Below are positions 45,678 to 53,431 of a DNA stretch of 64,000 nt, piece by piece. Within the stretch, counting starts at the first letter, position 1; each line of letters opens with the position of its first letter. The DNA comes from Sporomusa malonica (GTDB lineage Bacteria; Bacillota; Negativicutes; Sporomusales; Sporomusaceae), in contig NZ_FWXI01000006.1 in assembly GCF_900176355.1 (NCBI RefSeq), positions 125,140-189,139 on the forward strand, in the 5' to 3' direction. The notes under the pieces were generated by a model, which made no database searches, had not been told where the DNA came from, and saw only the letters and a program-made list of their open reading frames with translations. A program made the position numbers and the translations under genes.

Positions 45678-46727
45678 TTATTGTTTAGATAAAGCTCTAA
45701 GTATTTCAGCGGCTACACCAGTAATAGGTGTTATTTTATCAACTACACCCATTTCAATTGCTGATTTCGGCATTCCAAATACAACTGCCGTTGATTGATC
45801 TTCGGCAATGGTTTGGCCGTTCTGGCGCTTGATAGCCTGGATTCCTTTAGCTCCGTCATGCCCCATGCCGGTTAAAATAACCCCAATTGCCTTACTACCA
45901 AAAATACGTGCTACTGATTCCAGCATGGGATCTACTGCCGGCCTATGCCCACCAAGCGGGGGATTTTGATTAAGTTTAATAACTGCCTTCCCCCCTTCTC
46001 TTTCTACTACCATATGGTAATCTCCTGGTGCAATTAGAACTAGACCTGGACGTATAATATCATTATGCTCGGCTTCTTTAACAGTAACAGAAGATAATGA
46101 ATTTAACCTCTCAGCCAATGATTTAGTAAAACCAGGCGGCATATGCTGGACAATAACAATTCCGCAGGGAATGTTACCCGGGAGCTTAGTGATAATCTCC
46201 TGCAAGGCGCGAGGCCCTCCAGTAGAAGTACCAATAGCAACAATGCGTCCGTCCGCAAACACCCCCATCGGCGGAGACGTTTTTAGCGATGTGTTTAACA
46301 TGTTTGCCGGTTGCACCTTTACAAGCTGAGAAACATTGGCTTTTACGGCTTCCCTGCATTTGCTCAATATCTCAGCTCGTATTTCTAAAATGTTGGAAAT
46401 AGGCCCAGCTGTTTTAGCAACAAAATCAACAGCACCTAACTCAAGGGCCTGCAAAGTTGCCTCAGCGCCAGCTTGAGTTAAACTGCTAATCATAACTACA
46501 GGTGTCGGGCATTCTTTCATAACCTGTTCTAATGCCTTGATGCCATCTAATACCGGCATCTCAACATCCATTGTAACTAAGTCAGGCTTAAGACGTTTCA
46601 CTTTATCAATTGCGTCTTTGCCGTTACGAGCAGTATCAACAACCGTAAAATCAGCTTCACTTGCAAATAAATCGCTCAGAAGCTTACGCATGAATACAGA
46701 GTCATCTACAATCAGCACTTTTATCAC
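45678..46727 (-). CDS. cheB: Protein-glutamate methylesterase/deamidase CheB
   Basis: 349 aa. N-terminal receiver (DDSVFMRKLL, phospho-acceptor Asp in VTMDVEMPVLDG), linker, and C-terminal esterase with the catalytic Ser in GTSTGGPRAL, His in VQHMPPGFT, and GMGHDGAKG. Resets adaptation by removing receptor methyl groups. Confidence 0.97.
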   Translation of the reverse strand: MIKVLIVDDSVFMRKLLSDLFASEADFTVVDTARNGKDAIDKVKRLKPDLVTMDVEMPVLDGIKALEQVMKECPTPVVMISSLTQAGAEATLQALELGAVDFVAKTAGPISNILEIRAEILSKCREAVKANVSQLVKVQPANMLNTSLKTSPPMGVFADGRIVAIGTSTGGPRALQEIITKLPGNIPCGIVIVQHMPPGFTKSLAERLNSLSSVTVKEAEHNDIIRPGLVLIAPGDYHMVVEREGGKAVIKLNQNPPLGGHRPAVDPMLESVARIFGSKAIGVILTGMGHDGAKGIQAIKRQNGQTIAEDQSTAVVFGMPKSAIEMGVVDKITPITGVAAEILRALSKQ

Positions 46728-46754: not shown

Positions 46755-47417
46755 TCATTCCAGGCCTTTACGACGCTGCTCAAGTTGCCTTTTGAAGATA
46801 AATTTAATAATATTGCCACGGTCCTTTTCGTTAATTTCCAGAAACTTAATCCCCACCCAAAATACCTCTCTGTCCGGTTGGGGCTGTTGCACCCTGATAA
46901 CTTGACTTCTCAAGGTAACTGGCCCAATTTCAGGATAGTTAACTGTAATCAATAGATTAGTACCAATATGCCAATGGCGGTTAATAGCTATTTGTACGCC
47001 GCCGCCACTAATATCTTTTGTTACTGCATTAATTATTTTATCTTCGACTACCTTACCATCAATAATTTCTGCAATTTGTACCGGCAAAGCAGTGTCAATC
47101 CTAACAAAAGCTCGCTGTTGAATTTTTTTCACATCGTAAGGCAGAGTAATAATCCACGCTGGCAGAGGCTGAAGCTGCTTGGCAATCAAAGAGGTTGTAA
47201 ACTCATACGCTACACAATCTTCCACTAACCGCCCGAAAAATACTTCACCCCGCTGCAGCATTATAGGTACTCCCTTACTCATAGGCATGGCAATAACCAT
47301 ATTATCTGTAATATCTTCAATTCGACTGCGGTATTTCTCGGCAAGCCCACTCCGGTTGGGCACAATAACTTCGATACGCTGATTAATTTTAAAAATATCT
47401 TCAGGCTTAATACTAAT
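46755..47417 (-). CDS. PilZ-domain c-di-GMP-binding flagellar brake protein (YcgR-like), probable AUU start
   Basis: About 220 aa. An N-terminal YcgR-type domain precedes a PilZ domain whose c-di-GMP residues are in QQRAFVRID (RxxxR) and DISGGGVQI. Placed between flhG and cheB. The open frame between the flhG stop and the first in-frame GTG (47363) has no ATG, GTG or TTG; a strong AGGAGG (47423-47428) points to ATT at 47417. Starting at GTG would lose family-like residues IKPEDIFKINQRIEV and has no ribosome-binding site. Sequence error is the alternative. Confidence 0.8.
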   Translation of the reverse strand: MSIKPEDIFKINQRIEVIVPNRSGLAEKYRSRIEDITDNMVIAMPMSKGVPIMLQRGEVFFGRLVEDCVAYEFTTSLIAKQLQPLPAWIITLPYDVKKIQQRAFVRIDTALPVQIAEIIDGKVVEDKIINAVTKDISGGGVQIAINRHWHIGTNLLITVNYPEIGPVTLRSQVIRVQQPQPDREVFWVGIKFLEINEKDRGNIIKFIFKRQLEQRRKGLE

Positions 47418-47444
47418 CAGAACCTCCTCCTCACCATAGAGGAA

Positions 47445-48326
47445 CTACCAGATAAATTCTAAAAACTTATGAAAAAATCCTCTCATCCCTCGAGGCTTAT
47501 GAGTATTTTCGCCATAAAGTAAACGTTGAGCAATGTTCTCAATACACCGAGACGATATGGCATCTGGGAATGACATTAAAAGCGGTATCTGGGTTTTAAC
47601 AGCTTTAACCATATTGCGATCTTCATATACATAACCAAGGTTATTGATGGATACATCAAGAAACCTCTGGGAAACGCGCAGTAGTTTGTCTACAACCATT
47701 TGACCTTCGTCAAGATCTAAGATGCGGTTAACGACCAATCGAAGCGGTGCAACCCCATTTTGTCCCGTATACGCTTTCATCATGGCATACGCGTCGGTAA
47801 TGGCTGTAGGTTCAGGTGTGGTAATAATAATAACCTCATCGGCAGCCATAACAAAATTTAAGACATTACGACTAAGACCAGCCCCTGTATCAACTAAAAC
47901 AATATCAGCCCAATTATCAAATAAAGATATTTGGCCCACAATATGCTTTAGATGAGCATCACTTAGATTAGCCAAATGATAAATTCCAGATCCTCCGGCC
48001 ATAAATTTAATGCCGCGTGGGCCTTCAGTGACAACATCATTAATATTGAGCCCATCTTCCAACAAATTAAGAATATTATAAGCAGCTGAACACCCCAACA
48101 CAACCTCAACATTGGCCATCCCTAAATCGGCGTCAATAACTAATACCTTTTGGTCAAGTGCCGCTAAAGCCAGCGCCAGATTTACAGTAAAATTGGTCTT
48201 TCCCACACCACCTTTACCACTGGTAACCGTGATTACTCGGCTTTTAGGACTTTGCTTAATAATCGGACTTTTAGGGATTGAAGAATTTAGTGTCATTTGA
48301 CGTAGTTTCTCAGCTTGATCACTCAT
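47445..48326 (-). CDS. flhG: Flagellar number regulator FlhG (MinD-like ATPase)
   Basis: 293 aa ParA/MinD ATPase that works with FlhF in placing flagella. Deviant Walker A SGKGGVGKTNF, VLVIDADLGMANVEV, and DTGAGLSRNVL. N-terminal DQAEKLRQM helix is typical of FlhF-activating FlhG proteins. Four bases separate it from flhF. Confidence 0.96.
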   Translation of the reverse strand: MSDQAEKLRQMTLNSSIPKSPIIKQSPKSRVITVTSGKGGVGKTNFTVNLALALAALDQKVLVIDADLGMANVEVVLGCSAAYNILNLLEDGLNINDVVTEGPRGIKFMAGGSGIYHLANLSDAHLKHIVGQISLFDNWADIVLVDTGAGLSRNVLNFVMAADEVIIITTPEPTAITDAYAMMKAYTGQNGVAPLRLVVNRILDLDEGQMVVDKLLRVSQRFLDVSINNLGYVYEDRNMVKAVKTQIPLLMSFPDAISSRCIENIAQRLLYGENTHKPRGMRGFFHKFLEFIW

Positions 48327-53385: not shown

Positions 53386-53431
53386 TATGTCTTACCACCT
53401 ATCTAATATATGGGGGCTGGCCTCCTTTTAG

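Follow-up and report, generated by a model that had tools for sequence, protein, structure and literature searches.

The ycgR/motI-like gene in the flagellar operon of Sporomusa malonica very probably has a conserved weak AUU start codon behind a strong Shine-Dalgarno (SD) sequence, through which a c-di-GMP flagellar brake would be kept at a low level, probably in an IF3-sensitive manner. Codons homologous to this AUU are AUU, AUC or AUA (AUH) in 38 of 80 flhG-linked orthologues, spread over 15 families. This conservation suggests, at the level of sequence comparison, that weak translation of the brake is deliberately maintained.

The start site of the ycgR/motI-like gene

The window, a stretch of 64,000 nucleotides, contains the gene between flhG and cheB. 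The following features are relevant to its start.

46755..47417, minus strand: ycgR/motI-like PilZ gene encoding 220 aa, with AUU as start and TGA (46757-46755) as stop
47415..47417, minus strand: start codon ATT (AUU), the homologous codon being AUH in 38/80 flhG-linked orthologues from 15 families
47423..47428, minus strand: SD sequence AGGAGG, from direct sequence reading
47445..48326, minus strand: flhG, 293 aa, ATG start, the operon gene upstream of ycgR
45678..46727, minus strand: cheB, GTG start, downstream of ycgR and used as a control

The flhG stop codon TAG (47447-47445) is located 27 nt upstream of the AUU, and the stretch from this stop to ATT 47417 on the minus strand is TTCCTCTATGGTGAGGAGGAGGTTCTG. 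The SD sequence AGGAGG (47428-47423) sits within GAGGAGGAGG and is separated from the ATT (47417-47415) by the 5-base spacer TTCTG. The codons that follow the flhG stop in frame are TTC CTC TAT GGT GAG GAG GAG GTT CTG ATT AGT ATT AAG, and direct reading finds no in-frame ATG, GTG or TTG from this stop up to the GTG at 47363. The preliminary description, which had proposed an ATT start with AGGAGG five bases ahead and no earlier in-frame NUG (here AUG, GUG or UUG), is therefore borne out by the sequence.

The peptide read from ATT 47417 is ISIKPEDIF, that is (M)SIKPEDIF. The earlier view that the N-terminus is of the YcgR type holds, but the peptide then given, IKPEDIF, begins two codons past the SD-spaced ATT. 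Its first codon is a second ATT at 47411, with an SD spacing of 11; this was rejected as a start, codon 3 varying between ATT, ACT, AAT and AGT among relatives. The in-frame CTG at 47420 was likewise rejected, as it is not conserved in relatives. An altered initiator tRNA is ruled out, since all four initiator tRNA genes in the S. malonica genome carry the CAU anticodon.

The gene product

The Pfam domains PilZNR (PF12945, 2.8e-15) and PilZ (PF07238, 2.1e-11) both score over the cut-off, giving an architecture of an N-terminal YcgR-N (PilZNR) followed by a PilZ domain. The nearest solved relatives by sequence are Bacillus subtilis MotI/YpfA (5vx6, 2e-20) and Escherichia coli YcgR (5y6f, 1e-4), and the fold of the predicted model matches the same two structures. 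The prediction has a mean pLDDT of 89 and a pTM of 0.53, so that the arrangement of the domains is uncertain. The c-di-GMP-binding motifs RxxxR and (D/N)xSxxG are present as RAFVR and DISGGG, in regions that are invariant or nearly so among 14 orthologues. Domains, fold match and intact motifs agree with the PilZ/YcgR assignment given in the preliminary description. Judged from these features, the product is a flagellar-operon YcgR/MotI-type c-di-GMP effector. Its family and its place between flhG and cheB indicate that it would bind c-di-GMP and slow the flagellar motor.

Conservation of the start codon in the Negativicutes

Orthologues were collected from relatives and from the class, with flhG required upstream. 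Of the 81 loci obtained, 80 were scored; L047 was omitted because either ATT or GTG could be its start. The start codons are ATT in 29, ATA in 6, ATC in 3, ATG in 38, GTG in 3 and TTG in 1, so that AUH occupies the SD-spaced start in 38/80 and NUG in 42/80. Conservation of the ATT among relatives, which the preliminary description had proposed as a check, is thus clearly favourable to it. In family f1 the orthologues have ATT or ATC in 10 of 11 cases, the eleventh being G004 with its ATG. The AUH orthologues mostly carry AAGGAGG or AGGAGG 7–8 nt ahead of the AUH.

The frame of these codons was considered with the SD chosen blind to the start, counting the codons 5–9 nt behind it in each frame. 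AUH was found there in the gene's own frame in 37/38, and 4 and 0 times in the other frames. None of the 38 AUH-scored orthologues has a NUG codon 5–9 nt past the SD. Loci without a NUG in the first ten codons include L001-L004, L006-L008, L010, L011, L014, L017-L021, L025-L027, L048, L050, L062, L069 and L080. A TTG or GTG is found 2–5 codons past the AUH in most of family f12 and in L012, L015, L023, L066 and L074, whereas in L009 an in-frame ATG precedes the AUH; the AUH call is individually less certain in these cases.

The flanking genes behave differently under the same rule. Starts of flhG are NUG in 37/37 loci and those of cheB in 35/37, the remaining two being misassignments beside an ATG. 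Outside the class, NUG was found in the 29 phylum loci sampled, with the choice of start ambiguous in L175.

A match to SD plus AUH in a lone genome was rejected as proof of such a start. Across about 1.05 Mb and 852 genes of the S. malonica genome, ATT satisfies the SD rule with the same frequency as control codons such as TTT and AAA, and AUH codons that follow an SD without a good NUG are no more frequent than control codons behind an SD. The claim of an AUU start therefore rests on its conservation.

Selection for a weak start, or tolerance

On a tree of the flhG plus ycgR proteins, five changes between AUH and NUG are needed, and the AUH rows alone require seven changes among AUU, AUC and AUA. 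The third base (T, C or A) differs even between close relatives. One of the five changes lies within the Sporomusa group, where G004 has ATG in the same alignment column as the ATT, and family f18, which we take to be Selenomonadaceae-type, has ATG in all genomes sampled. These changes, with the strong SD that could offset a weak start, are what would be expected if the AUU were merely tolerated, through drift or a need for a low dose, with no dedicated role linked to IF3. This appears a rather unlikely reading, as AUH persists over 15 families while its third base shifts among U, C and A and rarely to G, although AUA needs just one transition to become AUG. Conservation of AUU, AUC and AUA, and not of AUG, fits a low-expression, IF3-sensitive start at the sequence level. 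The gene has AUG, GUG or UUG in roughly half of the class loci, all sampled f18 genomes among them; this counts against the proposed weak start, and low initiation is therefore not universally required.

The proposed weak start would operate as follows. Translation would begin at AUU 47417, steered by the strong SD. The initiator tRNA (CAU) would mispair at the third base of AUH, resulting in weak initiation, and IF3 would discriminate against it. Compared with flhG and cheB, which share its mRNA, the brake would be synthesised less, and its output would be tied to IF3 activity, as it is for infC. The infC gene starts with AUU in 34/35 genomes of the class and with AUA in 1/35, so the classic IF3-regulated start exists in this class. 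The comparison of ycgR with infC as self-limiting, made in the preliminary description, does not carry over, since only infC encodes IF3; ycgR would not be self-limiting because control would be exerted by IF3 and not by YcgR itself.

SD strength and a predicted hairpin between flhG and ycgR

The SD duplex is stronger in AUH orthologues (-12.1 kcal/mol) than in those with NUG (-9.2 kcal/mol), in line with an extended SD plus a weak start. There are few independent changes, and the association between SD strength and start codon is not significant on independent pairs. SD strength was therefore dropped as independent statistical support despite the raw difference.

A predicted structure includes part of the SD.

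47427..47444, minus strand: predicted 6-bp hairpin (ViennaRNA fold), its right arm overlapping the SD

The hairpin is composed of TTCCTC (47444-47439), the loop TATGGT and GAGGAG (47432-47427). The UCCUC arm lies just past the flhG stop. In L001-L010, which comprise the window and the nine loci closest to it, this arm is predicted to pair with the SD; the pairing is absent from most other AUH orthologues. The mean unpaired probability of the SD is about 0.3 in L001-L010 versus roughly 0.6 in the other AUH loci.

The main determinant of expression might then be translational coupling to flhG, mediated by this SD-masking hairpin, with the start codon of minor importance. The pairing of UCCUC with the SD in the predicted folds of all ten loci would suit this explanation. 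The hairpin is limited to that group, whereas the AUH start is class-wide, and no covariation supports the hairpin, its left arm being invariant. Coupling as the main control is accordingly unlikely. It is possible that the predicted hairpin is a coupling device in L001-L010 only. In the Sporomusa group it may mask the SD of the weak AUU start, with ribosomes finishing flhG helping to open it.

Other possible starts

The first in-frame NUG is the next candidate.

47361..47363, minus strand: GTG, codon 19 of the gene and its first in-frame NUG, rejected as the main start

Standard gene callers would pick this GTG, the first canonical codon in frame. Were translation to begin here or at another canonical codon, the AUU would be incidental and the protein shorter. 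There is no SD ahead of the GTG and it lies inside the predicted strand 14–20, the first strand of YcgR-N, most of which would be removed along with the beginning of PilZNR. Its position is also not conserved, the first NUG being codon 19, 36, 41 or 42 across the Sporomusa loci, past the conserved FKINQR motif. Codons 2–18 (residues SIKPEDIFKINQRIEVI) are conserved in frame. The absence of an SD, the location inside strand 14–20 and the unconserved position together make a start at this GTG very unlikely.

A 6-codon out-of-frame ORF (ATG 47437 to TGA 47417) overlaps the AUU and might drive reinitiation there, which is highly improbable: its ATG has no SD and is missing in L003 and most relatives although the AUH stays, and the ORF was rejected as not conserved. 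A sequencing error or a pseudogene is refuted by the ATT in independent assemblies of Sporomusa silvacetica (L032), Sporomusa sp. KB1 (L033) and Sporomusa ovata (L034), by ATH in other families, and by an intact reading frame that keeps the conserved motifs. From these comparisons, the AUU start is neither an error nor unique to S. malonica.

Further candidate genes for AUH starts

Several further genes have AUH at a putative start position. The rny gene (RNase Y; L231:9905, minus strand, in the S. malonica genome; relatives L248-L277 and L328-L356) has AUA, AUC or AUU preceded by a strong GGAGGTG-type SD in essentially every one of the roughly 30 class relatives. Across the phylum, inspection gives an AUH start for rny in about 21 of the 27 loci that are readable. 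A PPDK-regulatory-like gene (L224:11215, plus strand; L278-L307), so named solely from its N-terminal motif, begins with AUA in the majority of Sporomusa loci; over half of the class relatives have AUH, and the others ATG or GTG. A small gene presumed to be DUF3343-like (L203:7582, plus strand; L308-L318) has GCAGGTGAT..ATT/ATA starts in the S. malonica genome and in nine other Sporomusa-family loci. In the S. malonica genome, a transporter-like gene (L203:10216, plus strand) has AAGGAGG and then ATA with no NUG nearby. A gene at 53388 of the window (minus strand), which we take to be fliR-like, reads AGGTGGTAAGAC ATA TTG, and translation may in fact begin at the TTG adjoining the ATA.

It is conceivable, as a tentative proposal, that infC, rny, the PPDK-regulatory and DUF3343-like genes and ycgR form a small conserved set, a translational regulon read by IF3 in the Negativicutes and the wider Bacillota. 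If true, such a regulon would place mRNA decay, central metabolism and also motility under the influence of initiation-factor supply. Bacterial genes known to start with a codon outside the AUG, GUG and UUG set are few. Gene callers miss such starts, and genes with AUH starts are therefore annotated with wrong N-termini. The occurrence of AUU, AUC and AUA over 15 families, with G mostly avoided, is strong comparative evidence for selected weak initiation. Natural contrasts between AUU and AUG suited to the question of IF3 and motility are available in G004 versus its Sporomusa neighbours and in f18 versus the rest. The method used, based on orthologue columns that switch between AUU, AUC and AUA past a strong SD, also found rny phylum-wide and can find more.

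Comparison with known systems

The window protein shares its family and its two-domain YcgR-N/PilZ architecture with B. subtilis MotI/DgrA (5vx6) and E. coli YcgR (5y6f). No report of an AUU or other AUH start for ycgR/motI, in Sporomusa or for rny was found in the open-access literature searched.

Weak AUH starts are already known as a control device (infC, pcnB and S. aureus ccpN). Like ycgR, infC has a conserved AUU behind a strong SD in these genomes. It differs in its direct feedback, its product being IF3, whereas the product of ycgR is a motility effector. In Staphylococcus aureus, AUU and AUA starts yield about 10% of AUG in reporters and are paired with extended SDs, with ccpN reaching 30% in rich medium (PMC13009471). 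The ccpN of S. aureus and B. subtilis (AUA) and the staphylococcal cvfC1 (AUU) have a conserved AUH with an extended SD, as does ycgR, but are different genes; ycgR, PilZ and motility are not mentioned in that paper (PMC13009471). In E. coli, the AUU of pcnB limits translation of the chromosomal gene (Binns and Masters 2002, as cited in PMC13009471), as would that of ycgR, although pcnB encodes poly(A) polymerase and belongs to another phylum. The sigR gene of Streptomyces has a conserved, IF3-repressed GTC start and, like ycgR, is located in an operon where protein ratios matter (PMC5472188). Unlike ycgR, it has GTC and not AUH, encodes a sigma factor, is conserved at the level of the genus and has been demonstrated experimentally (PMC5472188). 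The AUU of infC, the yields from AUU and AUA in S. aureus and the repression of the sigR GTC are the grounds on which initiation of ycgR is predicted to be weak and IF3-sensitive. With AUU, AUC or AUA at optimal SD spacing, no usable NUG, and a non-canonical start whose conservation across species is notably deep (38/80, 15 families), ycgR seems to add a new, class-wide case to the conserved AUH-start genes.
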